A program made the translations under genes and the position numbers. From the NCBI RefSeq assembly GCF_016595525.1, contig NZ_JAENII010000003.1:248001-312000 (forward strand): a stretch of DNA of 64,000 bases, written 5' to 3'. The DNA comes from Haloferula rosea. GTDB taxonomy: Bacteria; Verrucomicrobiota; Verrucomicrobiia; Verrucomicrobiales; Akkermansiaceae. This document shows positions 19,908 to 32,194 of this stretch, piece by piece. Position 1 is the stretch's first letter, and each line of letters opens with the position of its first letter. The notes below the pieces were generated by a model that was not told the origin of the DNA, ran no database searches, and was given only the letters and a program-made list of their open reading frames with translations.

Positions 19908-19937
19908 TTTCCACCTTTACTTGCGAGTCGGTAGCCC
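19908..19937 (+). promoter_or_regulatory. Promoter-like motif before lptD
   Basis: TTTCCA (19908-19913) and TAGCCC (19932-19937) with an 18-base spacer, ending 16 bases before the chosen start codon. It is a weaker version of the recurring motif. Confidence 0.35.
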
Positions 19938-19953
19938 CTGTGATCCTGCCTCG

Positions 19954-22470
19954 ATGAGGCTTACTTCCTCCCTCTTTCTCAGCTCCGCGCTGATCCTTTC
20001 CGCGCAGCAACCCGATCTCGCCGAGGACGAACCGGCACCCATCGGGCCTGTCGCCCCGGTTCCCCTCCCCACCGACATCGATCTGATCGATGCGGCGGAC
20101 GTGGCACCGGCGCGCCCCAGCTCGGTCGAGCTTGAATTCGATGGCGGAGCCGACTTCGTCAAAGCCACCGAAACCGTGACGTCCCGCGGGGCCGTGCGCG
20201 CCGTGGCCGATACCGGCATGAGCCTCTCCGCCAACCGGGGACGCTACCTCGGCAAGGAGAAACAGCTGATCGTTGAGGGCAACGTCAAGCTGAAGACCGA
20301 AACCGGCATTGAGATCTTCGCCAATCACGGCGTGCTCGATGACACCGCCAAGACCGTCACCCTCACGGGAGATGTCAGCATCTATCAGGGACAGGGCGTC
20401 CAGCGCGGAAAGCGGGTCGTCTATTTCATGGAAGACCAGAAGATCGACGCCTCAGGTCTGAGGACCGGCGTCGACCCTCTCCTCCTCGAAGCCGATGGCT
20501 TCACCATGGAGGAGCGCGATGGTGAAACCGTCTTTGTCGGTCGTGATGCCGGCATCACCACCCACGACGTGGAGAATCCCGCCGTCTGGGTTCGGGCCGG
20601 TGAAACTACCGTCTTCCCGAACGACCGGGTGGAATTCAAGAACATGAAGCTCTATGCCGGAGATACCCCGATCTTCTGGCTCCCCTACTTTTCCCAGCCG
20701 CTTGACGGAGAACTCGGCTACCACTTCATCCCCGGTGCCCGCTCGAACTGGGGTGCCTACCTGCTGAACAGCTACGGCATCATGCTCGGCGAGGGCGAGG
20801 ACCGCTGGCTCCTCTCCCGCTGGAATTTCGACCTGCGTACGTCCCGCGGCGTCGCTGCCGGGCTCGACCTCGTCGACCGCCGAAGCCTCAAGAGCAACCC
20901 GAACTACACCGGCTTCTCCTTCTACTACGCCAACGACCTCGACCCGACCATCAGCCGCACCGGCCTGCCCCGCCCCCAGCTGAATGAAGACCGCTGGCGT
21001 GTGAAGCTCCAACAGCGCTTCAACCTGCCGTTCGAAGGCGGTGACGCCTGGAGGATCGATGCCAACCTGACCGCACTGAGCGACAACTACTTCCTCGAGG
21101 ACTTCGATCCGCGCACCTTCTCGACCGATCCCAATCCGGACAACACGCTGGGGCTCTTCCGCCGCGATGACAGCTCGCTGTTCGGAGTCCTCGCCCGATT
21201 CCGGCCCAATGACTTCTATCGCTCGGATACCCGGCTGCCGGAAATCACCTTCGAACAATCCAGACGCCCCCTGTTCGGACTCCCCATCCTTCACGAGGGT
21301 CAGACTTCATTTTCCGTGGTCGAAGAGGAGATCGGCACCGCCAACCAAAGCACGCTCAACAGCATCCTCGCCCTGCCTCCCGGCAATGCGACCGCCGAAA
21401 CGCTCATCCAGAACCTGCCCACCTACGAGCGGCAGCTCGTCAGGCAGATCCAGGCCCTGCCTCCGGGCAGCCCGCTGGTTCCAGCACTCACCACCCAGCT
21501 CCTCAACCCCGGCTTCACCCGGTTCCACACCTATCAGGAGCTTTCCACCCAGTTCAAGATCGGCGGATGGCTCAATCTCACCCCCGAAATTGGAGCCGGA
21601 TACTCGAACTACAGCGGCATCAACGGACCCGCAGCGACGGTCGACCGCGCGATCTTCTACGCAGGTGCCGAAGCCTCGATGAAGCTCAGCCGGGACTACG
21701 GAGGATTCGTCAGCCGGGACTGGGGACTCGACGGACTGCTCCATGTGTTCCAGCCCTACGCCCGGTTTTCCTATCTCAATACCAACGACCTCGGCCGCTT
21801 GTTCCCACAGATTGACCGGGAAAACTTCACCACGCGCCCACGGACCCTCGCTCCGAACCGCTACACCGCCATCGACTCCTTCACCGACTGGAACATCCTG
21901 CGGATGGGCATGCGCAACCAGCTCATCACACGGCGCGATGGGCAGAGCTACCAGTGGCTCTACATCGACACCTACCTCGACAGCTTCTTCGACGACCCCG
22001 AGGAGCTGAACCGGAATTTCTCGAACCTCTACAACGACGTCACCTGGCGCCCCTTGGAGTGGCTGTCCCTGAATCTTGAAACCCAGTTCCCCGTCCTCGA
22101 CAACGGATCCGGGTTCAGCGAAGTGTCCGCTCGCCTCCGCTTCATGCCGACCGAGAACCTCGAGTTCTCCATCGCCAACCGCTACCTCGACAACCATCCC
22201 ATCCTGGATGACTCCAACCGGATCGACCTGCGTGGATACGTTCGTCTGAATGACAAGTGGGGACTCGGTGCCACCCACATCTGGGAGCTCGATGATGGAA
22301 TCCTCGAAGTCCAGCAATACACCGTCCACCGCGACTTCAACCATTTCGTGGGCTCCCTTGGTTTCACCGCCAGAGACAACCGCCTCGACGAAGAATACGG
22401 GGTCGTCCTCTCGCTCGCCTTGAAGGACTTCCCCTCCGCCTCCCTCCCTTTCAGCCTCGACGCCCAGTAA
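19954..22470 (+). CDS. lptD: LPS-assembly outer-membrane protein LptD (OstA/Imp) family
   Basis: 838 residues from ATG 19954, which begins a signal peptide (LTSSLFLSSALILSAQ). Residues about 60-160 form an OstA/LptA-like beta-jellyroll with repeated strands (TSRGAVRAVADTGMSLSANR, KQLIVEGNVKLKTETG, AKTVTLTGDVSIYQG). The remainder is a beta-barrel with alternating aromatic strands and the conserved start FWLPYFSQPLDGELGYHFIPG. LptD places lipopolysaccharide in the outer leaflet, so its presence indicates an LPS-bearing outer membrane. The C-terminus lacks the usual final aromatic residue. LptE is not adjacent. Confidence 0.85.
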   Translation: MRLTSSLFLSSALILSAQQPDLAEDEPAPIGPVAPVPLPTDIDLIDAADVAPARPSSVELEFDGGADFVKATETVTSRGAVRAVADTGMSLSANRGRYLGKEKQLIVEGNVKLKTETGIEIFANHGVLDDTAKTVTLTGDVSIYQGQGVQRGKRVVYFMEDQKIDASGLRTGVDPLLLEADGFTMEERDGETVFVGRDAGITTHDVENPAVWVRAGETTVFPNDRVEFKNMKLYAGDTPIFWLPYFSQPLDGELGYHFIPGARSNWGAYLLNSYGIMLGEGEDRWLLSRWNFDLRTSRGVAAGLDLVDRRSLKSNPNYTGFSFYYANDLDPTISRTGLPRPQLNEDRWRVKLQQRFNLPFEGGDAWRIDANLTALSDNYFLEDFDPRTFSTDPNPDNTLGLFRRDDSSLFGVLARFRPNDFYRSDTRLPEITFEQSRRPLFGLPILHEGQTSFSVVEEEIGTANQSTLNSILALPPGNATAETLIQNLPTYERQLVRQIQALPPGSPLVPALTTQLLNPGFTRFHTYQELSTQFKIGGWLNLTPEIGAGYSNYSGINGPAATVDRAIFYAGAEASMKLSRDYGGFVSRDWGLDGLLHVFQPYARFSYLNTNDLGRLFPQIDRENFTTRPRTLAPNRYTAIDSFTDWNILRMGMRNQLITRRDGQSYQWLYIDTYLDSFFDDPEELNRNFSNLYNDVTWRPLEWLSLNLETQFPVLDNGSGFSEVSARLRFMPTENLEFSIANRYLDNHPILDDSNRIDLRGYVRLNDKWGLGATHIWELDDGILEVQQYTVHRDFNHFVGSLGFTARDNRLDEEYGVVLSLALKDFPSASLPFSLDAQ

Positions 22471-22486
22471 CCGTCACCCCATTTTC

Positions 22487-23125
22487 ATGACTCCCGCCGA
22501 GCTCACCTCCGCCCTCCAGTGGCGCTACGCCACCAAGGTCTTCGACCCCTCACGCTCCATTCCATCCGAGACTTGGGAAGCACTGGTCGATGCCCTCGTC
22601 GCCGCTCCATCGTCATTCGGGCTGCAACCTTGGAAGTTCTTCATTGTCGACGATACCGCGAAACGGGCCCAGCTGCGTGAAGTGTCCTGGGGTCAGTCTC
22701 AGGTCACCGATGCCGACAAGCTCGTGGTCTTTGCCGCGAGGACGGACATGACACCCGCCGACACCGAGCGTTGGCTGACGCGTCTCGCCTCCGTTCACGG
22801 CCAGGCACCCGACGAACTCACCGGCCTTGGCAAGGTGATCGACGGCTTCTGCAACAACATGACCGTCGAAGGCCGGCATGCATGGAACGTACGACAAACC
22901 TACATCGCACTCGGCCAGTTCATGGCTGCCGCCGCCATGGTGGGCGTCGATACCTGCCCGCTCGAGGGGCTCGACCCCAAGAGCTACGACAAGATCCTCG
23001 GACTCGAGGACAGCGGATACGCCACCTGCGTCGCCTGCGCTGCCGGCTACCGGTCCGGCGATGATAAGTATGCCTCCCGTCCGAAGGCACGCTTCGAGCG
23101 CGACGAAGTCGTCGAGCATCGCTGA
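22487..23125 (+). CDS. Nitroreductase-family NAD(P)H oxidoreductase (NfsB-like)
   Basis: 212 residues. FMN-binding features are RYATKVFDP near the N-terminus, APSSFGLQPWKFFIVDD in the middle and a glycine/cysteine-rich end (YATCVACAAGYRSGDD). The family reduces quinones, nitro compounds or flavins using NAD(P)H as a cytoplasmic dimer. The C-terminal VGVDTCPLEGLDP is the usual substrate-pocket segment. It begins 16 bases after lptD but probably has no link to LPS assembly. Confidence 0.9.
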   Translation: MTPAELTSALQWRYATKVFDPSRSIPSETWEALVDALVAAPSSFGLQPWKFFIVDDTAKRAQLREVSWGQSQVTDADKLVVFAARTDMTPADTERWLTRLASVHGQAPDELTGLGKVIDGFCNNMTVEGRHAWNVRQTYIALGQFMAAAAMVGVDTCPLEGLDPKSYDKILGLEDSGYATCVACAAGYRSGDDKYASRPKARFERDEVVEHR

Positions 23126-23351: not shown

Positions 23352-24131
23352 ATGCAAGCCCCGCTCCACCCTGAGTCCCGGCTGATCAGACCGTTTCTGG
23401 AGTTCTTCCAGCTGACAACCGGGGTTGCGGCACATGCATTCGCCCGCATCGGCGTCCTTCGCTTTCCAGCCACCCAGCGCGTCTTCCACAAGCAGGTCCT
23501 CTTCACCGGCATTCAGGCCCTGCTGCCGGTGACCATTGCCGGTCTGGCGGTGGGCATCGGGCTCGTCTCCCAGATGCGGTCGCTGCTCGGCAGCGGCGTG
23601 GAGCTCAATGTGAAGATGATGCAGGTCGTCGTGCTACGAGAATTCGCACCACTCCTCACCGCCTTCATCGTGCTCGGCCGGAGCGGATCGGCCATGGCGA
23701 CCGAAATCGCCGCGATGAAGGTGCGCGGAGAAATCCGCAGCCTCTATCGGCTCGGGATCGATCCCGGTGACTACCTCATCGTTCCCCGTGTGGTCGGCTG
23801 CTGCATCGCCGTTCCCGCCCTGACCCTGTTGTTCCAACTCGTCGCCACCGGCGTGGGCCCCGCCTTCGCCTCGCTCTTCGTCGAAATGCGGCTCCTGCCC
23901 TACTACTCCGCGCTGTTCCAACAGATCGCCCTTTCCGACATCCTCATCGGTCTCTCCAAGAACGTCAGCTTCGGGCTCATCATCGCCAGCGTCGCCTGCT
24001 CGACCGGAATCCACGTGCCCGCACAGCCTGCCTGGATCCCCCAAGCCGCTGAACTCTCGGTGCTGAGAAGCTTCATCCTCCTCCTGCTCGCCGACTTGCT
24101 CTTCGCCTCCATCTACCTCATCCGCTCATGA
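23352..24131 (+). CDS. mlaE: MlaE-type ABC permease of a phospholipid/MCE transport system
   Basis: 259 residues, the family length. The start is the ATG at 23352; upstream in-frame codons belong to non-coding sequence. Five or six hydrophobic segments and the MlaE signature are visible: QALLPVTIAGLAVGIGLVSQ, VVLREFAPLLTAFIVLGRSG, and AMATEIAAMKVRGEI, the loop that normally touches the ATPase. It overlaps the next gene by ATGA. In Gram-negative bacteria MlaE with MlaF and MlaD moves phospholipids between membranes. Here it is paired with a degenerate ATPase. Confidence 0.92.
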   Translation: MQAPLHPESRLIRPFLEFFQLTTGVAAHAFARIGVLRFPATQRVFHKQVLFTGIQALLPVTIAGLAVGIGLVSQMRSLLGSGVELNVKMMQVVVLREFAPLLTAFIVLGRSGSAMATEIAAMKVRGEIRSLYRLGIDPGDYLIVPRVVGCCIAVPALTLLFQLVATGVGPAFASLFVEMRLLPYYSALFQQIALSDILIGLSKNVSFGLIIASVACSTGIHVPAQPAWIPQAAELSVLRSFILLLLADLLFASIYLIRS

Positions 24132-24832
24132 CCGTCACGGCATCCACTGAAGTCCTCAGGATTCGTCAGCTCGACGGGCAGTTGTTCCAACCCTTCAGCT
24201 GCTCAATCCAGGCTGGCACGGGAGCCATCGTCCACGGGGATGACCCCCACACCTTCGATGAATTCATCGATCTTGTCGGTGGACTGGAACCCAGCCTCAC
24301 CGGCACCATCCAGCTTGCAGGAATCGGCGACCCCGCAGCCGATTCCGGGGACTGGAAGGCTCGCTCACGGCACATCGGCTACGCCGCGGGAGACTCCGGC
24401 ATGATCTCGAACCTCAAGGTTTTCGAGAACCTCCTGCTGCCTCTGCAAGCCGACGGTGATCCCCACGCCCGACTTGCCGAGGAGGAACTCGAAAATTCCA
24501 TCCTCCAGGCGTTCGATGCCGCCGGGTTCGACGCAGCCTGGGTCCACTCACGACTCCGCCTCAGTGCCGACGGACTGAGTCGCTTCGAGCGCGTCATCTG
24601 CGGACTCGTCCGCTGCCACCTGACCGGCTTCCGGCTTCTCCTCGGCGAACAGATCTTTGCCGAGCTCGACCCCTCACAAACCGGACGCCTCATCCACTTC
24701 CTCAACTGGCTCGGAGCCATGCATCCGGACTCTGGCATCCTGCTCACCTGCCTCAGGAACCAGCACCCTGATCTCTCGGAGTTGTCCGCATGGCAGCCCA
24801 TTCAAACCCTCACCCTTGAACCGTCATCATGA
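24128..24832 (+). CDS. Degenerate MlaF-like ABC ATPase (probable pseudo-ATPase)
   Basis: 234 residues. It sits in the mlaF position with ATGA overlaps on both sides. The fold landmarks of an ABC domain are present in order, but every catalytic motif is changed. The P-loop is IVHGDDPHTFD (34-44) without Gly-Lys-Ser/Thr. The Q-loop is GYAAGDSGM without Gln. The signature is LSADGLS (145-151) instead of LSGGQ. Walker B is LLLGEQ (170-175) without Asp-Glu, and the H-loop is LLTCLRNQ. A VFENLLLPLQ segment after the Q-loop still matches MlaF. The frame is intact, so this is a maintained protein, not a decaying gene. A regulatory or structural role is likely. Confidence 0.8.
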   Translation: MTVTASTEVLRIRQLDGQLFQPFSCSIQAGTGAIVHGDDPHTFDEFIDLVGGLEPSLTGTIQLAGIGDPAADSGDWKARSRHIGYAAGDSGMISNLKVFENLLLPLQADGDPHARLAEEELENSILQAFDAAGFDAAWVHSRLRLSADGLSRFERVICGLVRCHLTGFRLLLGEQIFAELDPSQTGRLIHFLNWLGAMHPDSGILLTCLRNQHPDLSELSAWQPIQTLTLEPSS

Positions 24833-25845
24833 CCCGCTTTCTGAAAGACTCCGATCCCAGATTCCACCTTGTGGAGCTCCGTTCGAAGACCTTTGTCGCC
24901 CTGTTGATCCTCGTCCTCGCTGCGATCACGGGCTTCGCCGCCTTCAAGCAGGAGTGGTTCCGCTCCGTGAAACCCTACTGGATGCTCGCCGAAACCAGCG
25001 AGAGCCTCCAACCGGGGATGGCGGTCCGCTTGAGTGGCTTCCGCATCGGCAGGGTGAAGAGCATCTCCCTCAAGGCGAACCGGCAGGTGAAGGTCGACCT
25101 GGAGATCTTCGACGAATACACCGACTACGTCAGGGGCGAAACGATCGCCAAACTCCGTGGCGAGAACCTCATTGGCGACCACTTCATCGAACTCTGGCTC
25201 CCCACCGAGCACAGCGGGGCGCCCCCACTGGCACCAGACTCGCGCATCACCTTTTCGCGCGGCAAGACCATCGACGAATTCGTCGAGTCACTGGAAAAGA
25301 AGTTCACTCCCATCCTCACCAGTCTGGCCACCCTGGCTGAGTCACTTCCGGACACGGCCGGGCGACTCGACTCCACCCTCGACCAAGCCAATGGCCTGAT
25401 CACCGACCTGAGGAGCGACGAGGGACATCTCGTCTCCAGCCTCAAGTCACTCCAGCACGCCCTCAGCGAAATCGATCAACTGGCCAGCGACCTGCGCTCG
25501 GAGGACCACGGACTGATGGCGGGAATCAGCCAGTTCAATGAAACCGCCGCCACCGTGAACCGGAAAGTCGAACCGCTCATCGACAGCCTGCAAAGCGGAG
25601 CAGTCACCCTCGATGAAACCGCAGGAGAAGCCCGCAAGCTCTTCGTTTCCGCCAACGAGATGATCGAGAACCTGAACCAGGTCGTGAAGGAAAGCTCGGG
25701 CGACATTCCCAAGATGGTCCACAAGGGTGCCGATGCCGCCGACAAGGCCGACGACGTCATGGACTCGGTTCGCCGCATGTGGCCGGTTCGCCAAGGCGTC
25801 AGCGACGGCAGCGACCAGGTCCTGCAAACCGGAAGCGATGATTGA
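24829..25845 (+). CDS. mlaD: MlaD-type MCE-domain protein, membrane-anchored
   Basis: 338 residues, start in an ATGA overlap. An N-terminal membrane helix (about 22-41) is followed by the MCE domain (about 50-130) with the core GMAVRLSGFRIGRVKSISL and the strand ending TIAKLRGENLIGDHFIEL. The C-terminal 200 residues are helical with long coiled-coil potential and several LxSLxxL repeats. MCE proteins form hexameric lipid channels in the periplasm. A longer helical tail suggests a bridge-forming, PqiB/YebT-like rather than a short MlaD-like molecule. Confidence 0.9.
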   Translation: MTRFLKDSDPRFHLVELRSKTFVALLILVLAAITGFAAFKQEWFRSVKPYWMLAETSESLQPGMAVRLSGFRIGRVKSISLKANRQVKVDLEIFDEYTDYVRGETIAKLRGENLIGDHFIELWLPTEHSGAPPLAPDSRITFSRGKTIDEFVESLEKKFTPILTSLATLAESLPDTAGRLDSTLDQANGLITDLRSDEGHLVSSLKSLQHALSEIDQLASDLRSEDHGLMAGISQFNETAATVNRKVEPLIDSLQSGAVTLDETAGEARKLFVSANEMIENLNQVVKESSGDIPKMVHKGADAADKADDVMDSVRRMWPVRQGVSDGSDQVLQTGSDD

Positions 25846-25849
25846 TCCC

Positions 25850-26725
25850 ATGAAAACCTTCTCCCTTCCCGCCCTCGTGAGCGCCGCCTTCCTCTTCGCA
25901 GGCTGTGCCACCACCGAGCAGGAACCCACGGTTCTGGCGGAAGCTCGCAGTCACTCACGCGACGGCAACGAAGCCTATCGGGAAGGCCGATTGGATGACT
26001 CCAGAAAAGCCTATGGGCGCGCTCTTGAGATTCACCGGTCGGTCGACCATCCGGAGGGCATCATCCGCGACCTGATCAACCTCGCCGTGGTCAGCGAAGC
26101 CCACGGCAGCCCAGCGGACGCGGCGGACTGCCTCGATGCCATCGATCGCTACATGCTCACCCTGCGTTCCTCAGGCGAAAATTCCCCATCGAGTCGCGAT
26201 CTGAACGAGCTGCTGCTCGAAGCTGGCTGGATGCGGGCCTACCTCCATGCGGACGCGGGAAACACGGCTGCAGCACGACGGGCACTGACTTCCACCCTCC
26301 AGAACTACGGACCCGCCGGCCGCAAACAGCGGGGCCGCTTCCTCAACCTCGAAGCAAGGCTCGACCTCGAAGACGGAAACGCAGCAAGCGCTCTCACCAA
26401 AGCCAGGCAGGGCCTCAAAGCCAACCAACGATCCGACCACCGCCGTGAAGTCGCCGACTCCCACCGCATCATCGGCCGAGCCCTCATCCCCATGGGCGAC
26501 CCGTCGGCCGCCCATCAAGCATTCACCTCGGCCCTCGAACTCGACCGCAAGCAAGGACGACCCGACAAGGTCGTCGATGACCTGCTCGGCATGGCCAGGG
26601 CATCGCAAGCTGCGGGCAATCCGGCGGAGGCACGAGCGGCCGCCGATCGCGCAATCATCGCAGCTCGCTCTTCAGGAAACCCTGCAGCTCAAGCCGAAGC
26701 GACACGATTCAGACAACGCCTCTGA
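25850..26725 (+). CDS. TPR-like lipoprotein of the MCE operon
   Basis: 291 residues from ATG 25850, four bases after mlaD. Lipobox LFAG-Cys with Cys19 gives a lipoprotein. The mature part is helical with tetratricopeptide-like units (RDGNEAYREGRLDDSRKAYGRALEI, then further repeats around 110, 200 and 240 of the chain). Such proteins usually hold complexes together at the inner or outer membrane. Its place at the end of the operon suggests it is a partner of the lipid transporter, taking the position where E. coli has MlaC and MlaB. It converges with the next gene by six bases. Confidence 0.75.
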   Translation: MKTFSLPALVSAAFLFAGCATTEQEPTVLAEARSHSRDGNEAYREGRLDDSRKAYGRALEIHRSVDHPEGIIRDLINLAVVSEAHGSPADAADCLDAIDRYMLTLRSSGENSPSSRDLNELLLEAGWMRAYLHADAGNTAAARRALTSTLQNYGPAGRKQRGRFLNLEARLDLEDGNAASALTKARQGLKANQRSDHRREVADSHRIIGRALIPMGDPSAAHQAFTSALELDRKQGRPDKVVDDLLGMARASQAAGNPAEARAAADRAIIAARSSGNPAAQAEATRFRQRL

Positions 26726-26731
26726 ACCAAA

Positions 26732-27406
26732 TCACTCCGCCGTCAGGTGCATGAAGTCGCGGAAACTGATGGATGACACCTTGCCTTCCTCGTCATCGAA
26801 AAGCACCACCACATAGGTCCCCTCATCCATGACCGGGATGGGACTGAGCTTCTGGTCCCCCACCCTGAGCGGCACATAGCCCTCCGGGTAGTTCATCGGT
26901 AGATTCGCCGTACCGAAGCGTTTCACGAACTGCTTGGTCCAACCGCCCTCCGGCTCCCGCATCTCGACCGCAAGCTCGGGCTGGGCACTCACCGAGACGA
27001 AGGTGGCGACCCGACCTTCCTGCTTCTTGGTCTGCTTCAGCCGGAGAATGCGGATCTGCCAATGCGCCGGTTCATCATCCGTTGCAGGAATGCGTTCCGC
27101 GAAGGGAATCACCGTAGTGGTTTCCCCGACCTCCACATCGACCGTCGTCGTGCCTTCCGTCACTCCGTCACGACGGATCACGACCTTGCAGCGTCCGGCA
27201 TCCACTCCGATGCCGCCCGTAGCATTTCCCAACTGATAGCCCGACGGATAAACATCCACGCCATTCAGCAAAAGGGACAGCTTCCCCTCTCCGGGGGCGA
27301 GAGCGTGGATCAGGCGGATGAAACCCACCTTCTTCTCTCCTTCCTGCGCGCTGGCCAGCGACCCAAAGCACAGAAGCACGGCAACCCATCTAGAAATCGT
27401 TTTCAT
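26732..27406 (-). CDS. Secreted protein of unknown function coupled to the Verru_Chthon cassette
   Basis: 224 residues from ATG 27406, which lies inside the end of cassette gene A (17-base overlap), so the two are translationally coupled. Signal peptide MKTISRWVAVLLCFGSLASA. The mature part is rich in beta strands (KVGFIRLIHALAPGEGKL, CKVVIRRDGV, TYVVVLFDDEEGKV) and may be two immunoglobulin-like or jelly-roll domains. No family recognised. The gene is the fifth member of the operon and is a candidate for a secreted or surface partner of the pseudopili. Confidence 0.75.
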   Translation of the reverse strand: MKTISRWVAVLLCFGSLASAQEGEKKVGFIRLIHALAPGEGKLSLLLNGVDVYPSGYQLGNATGGIGVDAGRCKVVIRRDGVTEGTTTVDVEVGETTTVIPFAERIPATDDEPAHWQIRILRLKQTKKQEGRVATFVSVSAQPELAVEMREPEGGWTKQFVKRFGTANLPMNYPEGYVPLRVGDQKLSPIPVMDEGTYVVVLFDDEEGKVSSISFRDFMHLTAE

Positions 27407-30341
27407 AGAGTATTTCGACATCAACCCTGTTTTCGCGGATCCTTCCATCCGCATCACGCTCGCCCGGATCCGCGAACAGGGAGAACACCTTGCGGGACTC
27501 CGCAAGCACCGTCGGCGTGTCCCGCCAGGCCGTGCCGGTCGCATCCGTGGGAGCGATGGACTGTCCGATCACCCACACGCGGAAGTTGCGTGACCGCAAG
27601 GTCGACGACTCCCAGAGACGCGCGAACAACTCCTCCGCCGCCGCATCCGTCCAACGAAGCTTGCTGCCGAGATCGAACAGCTCCTCATTCCCCCAGATGG
27701 AGCGCTCCTGCTCGTCCTCCACCATCGCCAGGGCGTAGGCTGAATCGAAGGGCCTCTCGGCAATGATGGCTTCCGCAATCAAGTCGGCCGCCTTCTCACG
27801 GGCGGGCGTTCCAACATCCGACTGCACCGTCCGCGGTGCCATCCACGGCATGTTTGAGTGGCTCGAGCTCAGCACCCGGCCGATCTTCGGATCCTGCCTC
27901 AGGTTCCCTGCCACCAACGCGCGGATCGCGTCTTCCGAGGCCGTATTCAGATTCACATGACCATCGACGGTCACCAATGGCGACTCCCGTTCCTCCTCTT
28001 CCTGCAAGGTCGATTTGCCCGCATGGAAGAGATCAAGGAGTCTCACTGCATGCTGCTCCTCATTGCGGAACCGCTGGTGCTCAGTCCGCCCGATCCGCAG
28101 CGTGTTGCCGCCACCGTAATCCGCACTCGGCACGCTCGCCGCCGTGACCTCCGGCCATGTGGTCCGCGAGGTCGGCATTCTTGGACTGCTGTCCAGCAAG
28201 GTCTTGGTGTCCAGACGACCGCTACCGGAACGGTTGGGCAAATCCGCATAAGCCGGCTGCCACATCACCGGGTCGAAAACCCGGCCCAGCTCCGCCGCGG
28301 AATAAAAGCGGCCCTGCTGCGAAAGTCGCTGCACCGCATTCTCCCGTTCCGGCGCCGGCAGATTCCCAATCAGTCGGCTGTCGGTCGGGAGCGACCTCTC
28401 ATCACTCCCCGGATTCCATGATCCCACCATCGAGTTGTGCCCGCCATCCGGCCATTCACTCGGAAGCACCCGCCCGTAGTGTCTGGGCTTCGTCGACGAG
28501 TCCCTGTCGTAGATCGTCCCACGCCGGACGTTCCTTCGTCCGGGGCTGGCATTCTCCGGGTAAGCGTTCTCACCGGCCGCTTCGTTGCGGATGTAGTGGG
28601 CGATCCGAGGGTCCCCCATGTTGTTCACAAAATCGCCGTAGGGGCCGTAACTGTGCCCTGGAATGGCCGCCTCCACCGCGACACTCTGGCGAGTGGCATA
28701 GAATGTGAGATTCTGGGGACTGCGCACGATCCGCTCGACACGGGCCACCTCGTCGTCGTTCCAGCGCAGGGACATCCCCGCCGCTCCGAGCGGTTCACTC
28801 AATGCGAAGGTCTTGATGAACTCACTGCCGGGCCCGGAGATCGGGCCCACGTCGAGCGAATACTCCACCGTCGCCATGAGGAAGACCCCATACTCGTCAG
28901 GCTCGAGCGAGACATTGAGACTAGGACTCCAGTACTTCCCGTCCTTCTTCTCGAGGTTGTGGGTCGATTGGATCGGATCGTCCAGCAGGGATGGATCGTC
29001 GAAGCGACGTCCCTGGGGAATCACCCCGATCCCCGTTGGTCCCAGACCATTCTCGTAGCTGACCTGACAAAGTCCGCTGACCGACTCGCTGGTCATGTTC
29101 CAGAACTCGGTGAAGACCTGAAACTCCCATTTCATGTACTTCCGGCCATCCTTGAATTCCAGACCGTTGTATCCAATGCGCAGGAAAATCTCGCTCAACA
29201 GCGGGTAGGCATCGAGCCCTCGGTAAGAGCCGCCAAGGGTGGGCGTGTCATCCGTGTCGGCATAGTCCAAGGCCCCCGCAGCCAGGGTCCGCAGGTAGTC
29301 ATCGGGGAAGCCCCCACCCCTCTCGTCGAACTCGGGCAGCCCTTGTTCCACATGCCGGGCGAACTCATCCACCGCCCGATCTCGTTCCATCCCGAGCAGT
29401 TCATTCAGGTTCAGCTTCGGCTCCCCGGTGAGAGCCTCATCAATCCCGGCCGAGAAGGGAACGATCGGCAATTCTTCATACGACCGCAGCCCTGCCACCA
29501 CCGAGCGCTCCACCACATCGGCCATCGGGTCTTCCAGTCGTCCTTGATCATCGCGATCCAAGCCCGGCTCACGCCCCAAGGCAGCCACCGCGGATTCAGG
29601 CGACACCAGTACCTCACGCCCCCCGTCGAGCAGTGAATCGAGTTCGCTGGATTCTTCATCGCCGGTTCTCGAAGGGTCCAGCGCATGGAAGCTCACCACG
29701 GCTTCTTCATCCCCTTCCTCGTCACTCACCCCCGGAGCAGGAAACGGCCACTCGACGCGTCCGTCACCACCCGCCTGCGAGGCGTCCAGCCTGGCCTGCA
29801 GGTCCTCAACCCAGAATCCATAGCGTCCCACCACCTTGCCCGCATCATCCTCCACCGGGATCCACGCAATGCGGGCGGACTCCGACCAAGGCCGGACCTC
29901 CATCTCCCCGGCGGAGGTGGGCTCGGACCAATCAGTGACCGGAGGCAAAGCGCTCAAATCCGTGACCGTCCGCCGTTCCAGCGGACTGCTGAAGAGTGGT
30001 TGCAGTTCATACTCAACGTCGTCGCCGCCTCCGCTGCCACGGACGAGAAAAAGGTAGTCCAAGGGATCGAGCGTGCTGCCCGCGTCCACTTCACCGGGCT
30101 GACTGACGATCAGGTAATCATCATTCGCCGTCTGCTCGCCCAATCGCGCCCTGACATCCTCCATGCCGGCCCGCGCAATCCACTCCGCGCGCTTCGAGTC
30201 GATGTACGACCGCGCCGTCTTGCGCTCGATGCCGACCACGGCGAGCACGCCCACCGCCAGCAGCAGGATCGCGGCCATCACGACCAGCACCACCGCCAGC
30301 GTGAATCCTCGGCGTGGGTATCTCTGTCGACTATGATTCAT
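27390..30341 (-). CDS. Verru_Chthon cassette protein A-like large pseudopilin-like protein
   Basis: 983 residues. The N-terminus is RRGFTLAVVLVVMAAILLL, a type IV pilin-like signal with a hydrophobic helix (about 11-37) but with the fifth residue after the cleavage site being Val, not Glu. A long exported body follows. Gene order and size match what I recall as Verru_Chthon cassette protein A (TIGR02600), found with cassettes B, C and D only in Verrucomicrobia. It resembles GspK-type minor pseudopilins that cap pseudopili. The start overlaps the end of gene C by 11 bases. Confidence 0.8.
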   Translation of the reverse strand: MNHSRQRYPRRGFTLAVVLVVMAAILLLAVGVLAVVGIERKTARSYIDSKRAEWIARAGMEDVRARLGEQTANDDYLIVSQPGEVDAGSTLDPLDYLFLVRGSGGGDDVEYELQPLFSSPLERRTVTDLSALPPVTDWSEPTSAGEMEVRPWSESARIAWIPVEDDAGKVVGRYGFWVEDLQARLDASQAGGDGRVEWPFPAPGVSDEEGDEEAVVSFHALDPSRTGDEESSELDSLLDGGREVLVSPESAVAALGREPGLDRDDQGRLEDPMADVVERSVVAGLRSYEELPIVPFSAGIDEALTGEPKLNLNELLGMERDRAVDEFARHVEQGLPEFDERGGGFPDDYLRTLAAGALDYADTDDTPTLGGSYRGLDAYPLLSEIFLRIGYNGLEFKDGRKYMKWEFQVFTEFWNMTSESVSGLCQVSYENGLGPTGIGVIPQGRRFDDPSLLDDPIQSTHNLEKKDGKYWSPSLNVSLEPDEYGVFLMATVEYSLDVGPISGPGSEFIKTFALSEPLGAAGMSLRWNDDEVARVERIVRSPQNLTFYATRQSVAVEAAIPGHSYGPYGDFVNNMGDPRIAHYIRNEAAGENAYPENASPGRRNVRRGTIYDRDSSTKPRHYGRVLPSEWPDGGHNSMVGSWNPGSDERSLPTDSRLIGNLPAPERENAVQRLSQQGRFYSAAELGRVFDPVMWQPAYADLPNRSGSGRLDTKTLLDSSPRMPTSRTTWPEVTAASVPSADYGGGNTLRIGRTEHQRFRNEEQHAVRLLDLFHAGKSTLQEEEERESPLVTVDGHVNLNTASEDAIRALVAGNLRQDPKIGRVLSSSHSNMPWMAPRTVQSDVGTPAREKAADLIAEAIIAERPFDSAYALAMVEDEQERSIWGNEELFDLGSKLRWTDAAAEELFARLWESSTLRSRNFRVWVIGQSIAPTDATGTAWRDTPTVLAESRKVFSLFADPGERDADGRIRENRVDVEILYENDF

Positions 30342-31074
30342 GCGAAAAAGCGTTCACGACTTCGTAGACTTCGAGGTCCGGAGAATCCTCCGCATCCTCT
30401 GGATTTCCAAGGAGGGGGCTTGAATCCCAATCACCGGCATTCCGCAATTTACCCATCAGCTCGCGTCGCGCCACCACAAGTCTCAAACGGACCGCGTCAG
30501 GACCGTCCCACTCCGGGTCCGCGGCTCGCGTCCACGCCCCCCATTCGCCCCCGGTTTCACGCAGCAAGGGATCGGCCTCGAAACCCAGCACACCGAACGC
30601 CACCGGCTCGTCCACCTCCGCGGGCTCGTAGAGCGATGCCACCGTGCCCGCACGAAGCGCATCAAAAGTCTCCTTGCTGTCGCGGAATCCCCGCATCAGG
30701 CAGCGCACCGGATCACGCCCCATCTGCAGATCCTTCAGATAATAAACCACCGCGCACAGGTCACCCACCCGATCGTCCGCCGATTGGGCGTCCGCCGGCT
30801 GCAGGCAGAGAAATCCAAGCCGATCCTTCCGCCATCCCGTGTCACCGCCACCGAAAACCATTTCCCGCCCCGTCACCGCCTTCGACAAATCCTCCGCCGC
30901 GATCGTCAGGACCGCCCTCGCCTCGCGCTCGGCAGCCATGCTGTTGGTGCTTTGATTGTAGCCATCTCCCGTGGATCTCAGGCTGGTCACCGCCAGCAGC
31001 AGCACGATGGTTCCGATCCCCATCGAGACCATCATCTCCACCAGCGTGAATCCATGGGGGGAACGAACTCTCAT
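30331..31074 (-). CDS. Verru_Chthon cassette protein C-like pseudopilin
   Basis: 247 residues. The prepilin motif is HGFTLVEMMVSMGIG, with Gly before Phe and Glu at position five, followed by a hydrophobic helix. The remainder is globular (CLQPADAQSADDR to YEVVNAFSHES). The family is what I recall as TIGR02599, a GspJ-like minor pseudopilin. The start overlaps gene B by ATGA. A prepilin peptidase is not encoded in the window, so processing must come from elsewhere. Confidence 0.8.
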   Translation of the reverse strand: MRVRSPHGFTLVEMMVSMGIGTIVLLLAVTSLRSTGDGYNQSTNSMAAEREARAVLTIAAEDLSKAVTGREMVFGGGDTGWRKDRLGFLCLQPADAQSADDRVGDLCAVVYYLKDLQMGRDPVRCLMRGFRDSKETFDALRAGTVASLYEPAEVDEPVAFGVLGFEADPLLRETGGEWGAWTRAADPEWDGPDAVRLRLVVARRELMGKLRNAGDWDSSPLLGNPEDAEDSPDLEVYEVVNAFSHES

Positions 31075-31565
31075 GGCAGTTTCGTGTGAAAGCTCACCCC
31101 TGAGCGCTGACTCCGTTCGCGGACCGCCGGGTGCTCGACCCGGACCGTCACGGTGACCCCGGGATCATCGAACCGCCCCGAGATGCTGGCCACGTAGTTC
31201 ACGTCTTCTCCATCAATGGTTTCCCGCATTCCTCCCTCGAAACTCGACTGATCCAGTGTCCCAAGAAGCTGCCCATCGCGCGAGAACCCAAGCACCAGAA
31301 CCTGGCCGGCGCCGGGAAAGGATACCGCAGGCTCCAAGGTCGGCAGCACCGCGGACTCCCCGCGCCGAGCCGCCTTCACCTCCATCAAACAACGTTCCGC
31401 AATCGCAGGAGCCCGTGTTTCCGCGCGCGCCGCACTTCCCACCGAGCCGGCCTTGCTCATCGCCGCCAGAGCCAGAGGCACGGCGACCGCCAGCACGCCC
31501 ATCGCCACGACGGTTTCGATCATCGAAACGCCGGGCAGTCGCTTGCGGGCTCGGGTCCTCTTCAT
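31071..31565 (-). CDS. Verru_Chthon cassette protein B-like pseudopilin
   Basis: 164 residues from ATG 31565, which overlaps the stop of gene D by ATGA. The prepilin signal is LPGVSMIETVVAMGVLAVAVPL, that is Gly followed by a helix with Glu at position five. The C-terminal beta-rich domain ends with VTVRVEHPAVRE. It corresponds to my memory of TIGR02598, a GspI-like minor pseudopilin. Part of a tight D-B-C-A operon. Confidence 0.8.
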   Translation of the reverse strand: MKRTRARKRLPGVSMIETVVAMGVLAVAVPLALAAMSKAGSVGSAARAETRAPAIAERCLMEVKAARRGESAVLPTLEPAVSFPGAGQVLVLGFSRDGQLLGTLDQSSFEGGMRETIDGEDVNYVASISGRFDDPGVTVTVRVEHPAVRERSQRSGVSFHTKLP

Positions 31566-32194
31566 ACGTCCAGATTCCATGCTCGGGCCACGACGCGACC
31601 AATCCGGATCGCCCTGCGGCCACCACCCGAGGCCTCCACCGTCTGATTCCCCTGATACACCCCACTTCCCAGCGAAATCACCACCGACTCCGAACCCGCC
31701 GGGGCCAGAAGCCCACCACGGGCAGAAAACACCAACCCGGGAAACTCGCCTGCTTCGTCGCCGTCCTTCCACGTGAGGCGAATGTCCGACTGATCAAACA
31801 CGTTGTCCAATTGATCCACATCCCCCCCGAAAAAAGCGACCCCAGCGGGCAAAACCGCCCAACGCTGGAGCTGGCGACCCACGAGTTCCTCGCCATCCTC
31901 CCAACCCTCGAGCTCGAACAGCCCGACGCGGGACATTTCGTCGCTGAAGCCGCCATCCCCCGGCTTGAGGAAAACCATCGCCACCGGCCGACGACGCGTG
32001 ATCGCCGAGGTGCGGCCCTGCTCGATGAGCGCGGACACCTGCTCCGTCGAGGTTTGCACCGCCTCGGCCCGGTTGTTCCGGAACAAGCTGACCCCGACTG
32101 CCAGCAGAAGAATCGAGATCGTCACCACGGCGATCAATTCAATCAGGCTGAAGCCACAAGGCTGGCGATCCTCTGGACAAGGGGAATGCGTCAT
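31562..32194 (-). CDS. Verru_Chthon cassette protein D-like pseudopilin, first gene of the operon
   Basis: 210 residues. The leader is MTHSPCPEDRQPCG, followed by FSLIELIAVVTISILLLA, a textbook type IV prepilin site with Glu at position five. The globular part contains RRRPVAMVFLKPGDGGF. Matches TIGR02596-like cassette D, a GspH-like pseudopilin. The operon is divergent from the gene at 32353; the 158 bases between hold its promoter, which I could not assign. Confidence 0.8.
   Translation of the reverse strand: MTHSPCPEDRQPCGFSLIELIAVVTISILLLAVGVSLFRNNRAEAVQTSTEQVSALIEQGRTSAITRRRPVAMVFLKPGDGGFSDEMSRVGLFELEGWEDGEELVGRQLQRWAVLPAGVAFFGGDVDQLDNVFDQSDIRLTWKDGDEAGEFPGLVFSARGGLLAPAGSESVVISLGSGVYQGNQTVEASGGGRRAIRIGRVVARAWNLDV

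Follow-up and report, generated by a model that had tools for sequence, protein, structure and literature searches.

A predicted catalytically dead ATPase subunit in an Mla-type lipid transporter operon of Haloferula rosea and its relatives

How does a lipid transporter of the Mla type operate when the gene in the position of its ATPase encodes a protein without the motifs of ATP chemistry? The question is raised by an operon in a 64,000-nucleotide stretch of Haloferula rosea DNA (contig NZ_JAENII010000003.1, positions 248,001 to 312,000; hereafter the window), which follows the Mla/MCE plan in that a MlaE permease, a protein in the ATP-binding cassette (ABC) ATPase position and an MCE protein are encoded within one operon, with matches to PF02405 and PF02470 above cut-off (Table 1). 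An original prediction, made from the sequence alone, took the middle gene for a dead subunit of MlaF type within an operon otherwise intact, with an uninterrupted frame, ATGA coupling to mlaE and to an mlaD-type gene, and simultaneous changes in the P-loop, Q-loop, signature, Walker B and H-loop. Coordinates and frames confirm this layout, in which two ATGA overlaps couple mlaE to the pseudo-ATPase gene and the pseudo-ATPase gene to the MCE gene; alignment to an intact MlaF confirms the motif changes; and sequence, conservation, selection and phylogeny together back the description as a whole. Permease, MCE protein and ABC-ATPase-like protein are conserved together, the gene for the last of these is under purifying selection, and its ATP motifs are gone.

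In the alignment to intact MlaF, the canonical Walker A sequence GGSGAGKS corresponds to GDDPHTFD in the window protein, the Q-loop FQGG to AGDS, the signature LSGGM to LSRFE, the Asp-Glu pair of the Walker B segment YDEP to GEQI, and the His-containing H-loop VTHE to LTCL (within LTCLRN); the part of the protein beyond the H-loop is shortened. On these grounds the subunit is predicted to be catalytically dead, that is, without the motifs for ATP binding and hydrolysis. The protein has no Pfam match at E<=0.01 and its NCBIfam matches all lie far under cut-off (best 21.5 bits), and homology to ABC ATPases emerges from hhalign comparison of a profile of five such pseudo-ATPases with one of five canonical MlaFs (98.6% probability, E 1.3e-15, 192 columns). 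As support for this profile comparison only, a low-confidence structure model (mean predicted local distance difference test score, pLDDT, 53) was matched to the PDB: nearly all of the 50 matches listed are titled ABC-type ATPases, and the comparison with MlaF 6XGY gave a Z of 9.5 and a root-mean-square deviation of 5.0 over 171 aligned residues.

The same losses recur in related genomes. Strong matches to the pseudo-ATPase were found in 3 of 18 genomes of the genus, each with a matching MlaE: the window genome (G000), the metagenome-assembled genome Verrucomicrobiia Co_bin.296 (G014) and Verrucomicrobiaceae bacterium E54 (G017; phylum Verrucomicrobiota). A class-wide search of 384 genomes with a three-row pseudo-ATPase profile added G238 and G332, from families other than that of the window genome, both of which carry the three-gene operon and share its losses, and a MlaE profile search added G271, bringing the genomes that share the fully dead state to six in three families. 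Walker A, the signature and the Walker B pair are lost in all six, and mlaE and the pseudo-ATPase gene overlap by ATGA in all five that were placed by codon (G000, G014, G017, G238 and G332). Since the losses are kept in relatives, a local mutation is not borne out, and because the same state recurs in separate assemblies a sequencing error is unlikely; local mutation and assembly error are both ruled out as explanations, no frameshift was found, and the class- and phylum-wide matches rule out a trait unique to the genus.

Beyond such conservation, which the original prediction had called for examining, the window operon proved to be one end of a graded series across the phylum. With a profile built from the fully dead and semi-degenerate kinds, this type of MlaE was found at E<=1e-50 in 81 of the 384 class genomes, and all 81 neighbourhoods were read: 79 have a degenerate ATPase, 2 have no ATPase gene and none has a canonical one. 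The class set, like the phylum set below, is an even draw from a larger group, and both searches scored the best 6-7 candidates per genome, which makes the counts of positive genomes lower bounds. Four of the 81 are fully dead (G000, G238, G332 and G271; G014 and G017 stand outside the draw and add two further fully dead members) and 75 are semi-degenerate. With few exceptions, the semi-degenerate subunits have lost the signature, the catalytic Glu (mostly replaced by Asn), the Q-loop Gln and the H-loop His, and 72 of the 75 keep the P-loop Lys (those of G198, G171 and G285 do not). The exceptions retain the Walker B Glu (L230, L238 and L312), the Q-loop Gln (L262, L312, L320 and L334) or a His in the H-loop column (L339). 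Four subunits, L312, L313, L315 and L332, were counted as keeping Walker A by eye, with the P-loop Lys present and, in L315, followed by Arg; L328 is the single Lys loss of that batch. Two genomes of one genus, G123 and G154, have a direct mlaE-mce ATGA overlap (near 4168 of L314 and 2474 of L316, respectively), and the stretch read contains no ATPase gene. The next-closest MlaEs adjoin a subunit that keeps both the P-loop Lys and the Walker B Asp.

The least degenerate subunit, L312 (G105), keeps the Q-loop Gln and the Walker B Glu, has the P-loop GPAGAKKS and has lost the signature and H-loop; its MlaE lies on a long branch within the degenerate clade. Seventy class loci from a MlaE-profile search, 30 given by the search and 40 fetched, were also read, and have canonical neighbours in 17 cases, degenerate ones in 52 and no ATPase match in one (L244, G253:C104; the other locus of G253, L326, is degenerate). 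All 17 canonical loci fall outside the degenerate clade. As a separate observation, the P-loop Lys is replaced by Met (GGSGCGMST) in the otherwise canonical MlaF at L146 (G254), whose neighbour is a canonical-type MlaE.

Of 387 genomes drawn from across the phylum, 56 passed a cut-off of E<=1e-45, 3 of them from the window genome's own or same class and 53 from other classes. One of the former, G099, has a canonical ATPase, and this looser cut-off is therefore not specific. Among the 53, the MlaE neighbour lacks Walker A in 41 and is canonical in 4 (G460, G695, G648 and G520), no ATPase lies in the stretch read in 7, and in one (G685) the contig ends just after mlaE. Five other-class genomes of one family (G440, G449, G630, G642 and G656) have mlaE and mce but, in the stretch read, no ATPase; all three MlaEs tested from this family group with canonical MlaEs. 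In G506 and G496, neither an ATPase nor an MCE match was found in the stretch read, and the MlaE of G506 groups with the degenerate type.

Phylogenetic analysis of MlaE gives this series a shape. In a 45-row tree rooted on E. coli MlaE, all 29 degenerate rows form one clade (100/99) nested among 16 canonical or unlinked MlaE rows, and within it the dead class members (99/97), the dead other-class members (100/100) and the semi-degenerate members (100/99) each form one group, the latter two being sisters (98/83). A quick tree of 106 rows recovers the split between degenerate and canonical MlaEs at 99 and the sister pair more weakly, at 81. The MlaEs of G123 and G154, which lack the ATPase gene, fall within the semi-degenerate clade. 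The rows were picked for their resemblance to MlaEs of this type, the trees of 45 and 58 rows are hand-chosen subsets, that of 106 rows includes 5 of the 14 MlaEs described below as unlinked in the genus, a partial MlaE row (L148) was left out of all three, and the tree-building program flagged long branches that meet. Because the degenerate MlaEs form one clade in which the dead groups are separate, a single origin of the catalytic loss is probable within this sample, though there may be further origins elsewhere, and Walker A was probably lost at least twice, in addition to scattered losses among semi-degenerate members.

Purifying selection acts on the pseudo-ATPase gene, though with less force than on MlaE. 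Between G014 and G017, the ratio of nonsynonymous to synonymous substitution rates (dN/dS, by the NG86 method of Nei and Gojobori) is 0.30 for the pseudo-ATPase, 0.11 for MlaE and 0.12 for the MCE protein; it is 0.12-0.41 in eight pairs of other-class dead proteins, with L278 and L284 each used in two pairs, and 0.09-0.23 in five semi-degenerate pairs, values that are coarse in that several dS estimates are near or above 1. When 33 fully dead proteins were aligned, six residues were invariant (Gly34, Gly56, Asn99, Glu104, Asn105 and Arg157, E. coli MlaF numbering), and the stretch after the Q-loop that contains N99, E104 and N105 is among the best-kept regions. We take Asn99-Asn105 to lie near the place where permeases dock in ABC transporters. 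In MlaE, conservation extends to the cytoplasmic coupling-helix segment, KVRGEIRSLYRLGIDPGDYL in the window MlaE as placed by alignments and the coupling-helix consensus, which has Gly-Glu in degenerate types and mostly Glu-Glu or Glu-Gln in canonical ones. In MlaFEDB, the coupling helix links MlaE to MlaF, according to the part of PMC7790496 that describes the complex.

These patterns lead us to favour, by a modest measure, an operon that encodes an MCE lipid conduit unpowered by its own ATPase, with the pseudo-ATPase as a scaffold on MlaE. Two pseudo-ATPases would sit on the MlaE coupling helices, either keeping MlaE and the MCE protein assembled or acting as the gate of the complex. Lipids would cross MlaE and the MCE tunnel with no ATP-driven power stroke supplied by the pseudo-ATPase; they would either follow a gradient, as a two-way equilibration between membranes, or be drawn by an acceptor on the side of the outer membrane. 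The route to this state probably began with loss of the signature, Q-loop, catalytic Glu and H-loop and retention of Walker A, as in most class members, continued with repeated loss of Walker A, as in the window operon and in other classes, and ended in one genus with loss of the ATPase gene. Read from these sequences, the series may represent a lineage that abandoned ATP, first binding it unsplit, then losing the binding several times independently, then losing the gene. The broader proposition, that a phylum-wide MlaE-type lineage gave up ATP-driven transport by graded decay of its ATPase to a structural pseudo-enzyme, with conduits that equilibrate or are driven from the outer membrane, strikes us as having not quite an even chance of being correct.

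A different account would have the energy borrowed, with a canonical MlaF or another ABC ATPase docking on MlaE or forming a heterodimer with the pseudo-ATPase. The search for a second mlaF in the window genome, suggested with the original prediction, did find one: a canonical mlaF-mlaD pair with intact motifs lies on contig C5 (L041 4748-6567), and a canonical mlaE stands alone on C22 (L003 5961-6755, minus strand). These genes make supply of MlaF in trans a real option, and since this mlaF is unlinked to the lone mlaE, the MlaF presumably already serves an unlinked MlaE; in 14 of the 18 genus genomes, mlaE is likewise unlinked, no ABC ATPase motif set being present in the ~1.5 kb before or after it. 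Mce1/Mce4 are also known to share an unlinked ATPase (PMC9947336), and mlaE-mce arrangements without an ATPase in the stretch read, in two class and five other-class genomes, would fit such sharing.

This half of the borrowing proposal, the presence of a second mlaF, thus stood up in the window genome, and it is E54 that counts against the rest. E54 retains the dead operon, and the MlaE of that operon is the only one found there; no canonical MlaD or MlaE was detected at E<=1e-10, and the best MlaF match is only 38% identical, compared with 72-100% in G000, G014 (80%) and G004 (72%). The dihydrouridine synthase that flanks the canonical pair is present in E54 (72%), and from it to the next conserved gene is ~0.9 kb, where G000 holds mlaF and mlaD in a gap of ~2.5 kb; mlaFD is therefore missing between conserved flanks, in an assembly rated 97% complete. 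Because the dead operon is present and canonical MlaE, MlaF and MlaD went undetected, borrowing of MlaF is unlikely in E54. Two further points argue against borrowing in general: the pseudo-ATPase is kept in 79 of the 81 class operons, where it would compete for the same site, and a heterodimer with a subunit that lacks Walker A and signature would, by the architecture of nucleotide-binding domains, have no complete composite site. It is the E54 gene content and this incomplete site that lead us to prefer the ATP-independent conduit, and we regard a borrowed ATPase as an unlikely, if still serious, competitor.

Somewhat less likely again is a nucleotide-sensing or regulatory subunit, whereby relatives that keep Walker A bind ATP unhydrolysed as a switch that, in the window protein, has moved to another ligand or partner. 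The 72 of 75 semi-degenerate class members that keep the Walker A Lys, mostly without the other motifs, speak for this idea, as does the minutes-long retention of ATP known from degenerate ABC sites (PMC7756269). On the other hand, Walker A is absent from the six members of the dead clade, three other class members and 41 operons of other classes; with so wide a loss, ATP cannot be the general ligand of the pseudo-ATPases, and no other ligand site was identified. We consider it improbable that the gene is simply decaying, its product functionless and the ATPase on its way to being lost, even though it evolves faster than MlaE, is patchily distributed (3 of 18 genus genomes) and is absent from the stretch read in one genus of the semi-degenerate lineage: frames are uninterrupted in the ATPases read, including the 41 from other classes, dN/dS is well under 1, ATGA coupling to mlaE is present in the five of the six dead members that were placed by codon and the segment after the Q-loop is conserved. 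Finally, an unorthodox ATPase that still binds and hydrolyses ATP through other residues would agree with the retained ABC-like profile and is very improbable, given that no GK[ST] P-loop occurs in the aligned fully dead members and that, among the 33 relatives aligned, the motif positions are variable and no new motif stands out there.

Several observations qualify the picture of a dead, unpowered scaffold or weigh against it. The window Walker B segment reads Gly-Glu or Glu-Gln depending on where a one-residue gap is placed, and a Glu of this GEQ segment may therefore occupy the catalytic column, where the five remaining members of the dead class clade have Arg, Arg, Asp, Asp and Asn. Two of the six fully dead members, G014 and G238, retain a His in the H-loop column, and the structure model of the pseudo-ATPase is, at its mean pLDDT, a poor one. 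The faster evolution of the pseudo-ATPase relative to MlaE indicates constraint that is partly relaxed, and the restriction of the operon to three genomes of the genus means that it is dispensable for many. The window genome and the other dead-operon genomes except E54 own a canonical-type MlaF, which would make an energised hybrid possible, and E54 itself has other ABC ATPases.

Table 1. Genes of the dead-ATPase operon in the window and the gene that follows them.
Feature	Length	Coordinates	Strand	Basis
MlaE/YrbE-type permease	259 aa	23352..24131	+	PF02405, 164.5 bits
Pseudo-ATPase in mlaF position	234 aa	24128..24832	+	ABC-ATPase-like profile, catalytic motifs lost
MCE-domain protein	338 aa	24829..25845	+	PF02470, 51.6 bits
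TPR lipoprotein, lipobox LFAGC; probably fourth operon gene		25850..26725	+	TPR matches

Both recognisable Mla components fall short of their NCBIfam cut-offs, the MlaE scoring 127.2 bits against TIGR00056 (cut-off 212.2) and the MCE protein 87.3 bits against TIGR00996 (cut-off 140.5). The MCE protein has a long C-terminal part that ends in KADDVMDSVRRMWPVR, followed by a short tail. MlaA, MlaB and MlaC were absent from the eight proteins scanned around the operon, the extent of that search, which was not genome-wide. TPR-type lipoprotein-like genes also lie 3' of the MCE gene in G014, G017 and other-class operons; in the other-class loci L295 and L300, read gene by gene (with Pfam domains for L300), the MCE gene is followed by genes for a TPR lipoprotein, a lipobox-bearing M48-peptidase protein and a CHASE2-cyclase. 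Similarity between the window TPR lipoprotein and that of L300 is weak (E 0.006) and serves as a positional hint only.

A number of neighbouring features were recorded alongside. The M48 peptidase with lipobox and the CHASE2-cyclase lie at 10728-13854 of L300 and 788-3855 of L295, both from other classes, 3' of the dead-ATPase operon, and a similar cyclase end, recognised by eye, adjoins the G332 operon (L090 3077-3565, minus strand). In G238, an ABC exporter-like gene with an intact P-loop (L082 16-699) ends 4 bases before the ATG used for mlaE of the dead operon. Just upstream of the window operon are a gene for an LptD-like outer-membrane protein (PF04453; window 19921-22470) and then a nitroreductase gene (22487-23125). 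Downstream, a run of minus-strand genes at window 27390-32194 has products that by eye begin with prepilin-like GFTL segments and are perhaps pseudopilins. A 725-residue frame with three MCE-domain matches, PqiB/LetB-like, lies ~30 kb before the window (G000:C33:217392-218414).

The original prediction knew of no described Mla system like this, and full-text searches of open-access literature turned up no paper whose title or abstract describes a catalytically dead ATPase in an Mla or MCE system, subscription articles and bioRxiv preprints being outside the search. A survey that assigned MlaF by gene neighbourhood mentions uncertain MlaF annotations and, in the portion of its text available, makes no mention of lost MlaF motifs (PMC10665443). 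The powering and lipid direction of MCE systems are themselves open, and two opposite transport models are set out in PMC7790496. Structure and energy come apart in a MlaE-type transporter whose permease, MCE tunnel and ATPase-like subunit persist but whose ATP chemistry does not, and this lineage provides a natural sequence of stages: canonical, Walker A only, dead and absent. For annotation, naming the mlaE neighbour an ATP-binding subunit from gene order alone would be functionally wrong for many genomes of the phylum.

Compared with known systems, the Mla/MlaEFD plan is familiar, and what is new is a predicted catalytically dead subunit within it, unexpectedly widespread in the phylum. Like E. 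coli MlaFEDB and Veillonella parvula MlaEFD, the window operon combines a MlaE with coupling helix, an ABC-ATPase-like subunit in the MlaF position and an MCE protein, and its long MCE protein resembles those of MlaEFD systems outside Proteobacteria (described in the same portion of PMC10665443). Unlike these systems, which have a working ATPase, its ATPase subunit is without catalytic motifs, its MlaE falls under the TIGR00056 cut-off and it has an additional TPR lipoprotein. The mycobacterial Mce1/Mce4 systems, which share MceG, similarly pair a MlaE/YrbE-type permease and MCE proteins with no working ATPase of their own operon, whereas the window operon retains a dead ATPase-like gene and E54, one of its hosts, shows no canonical MlaF to share. 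PqiAB and YebST (LetAB) have a PqiA-type membrane partner and no ATPase-like subunit, going by the relevant part of PMC5561183, whereas the membrane protein of the window operon is a MlaE and not of PqiA type, which places it outside that group. Asymmetric ABC exporters such as TAP and CFTR have lost the catalytic Glu, often with H-loop changes, at one site (PMC7756269, in the part concerned with these exporters), yet they keep one canonical site, whereas the window operon encodes a degenerate subunit only, in which Walker A is lost as well.

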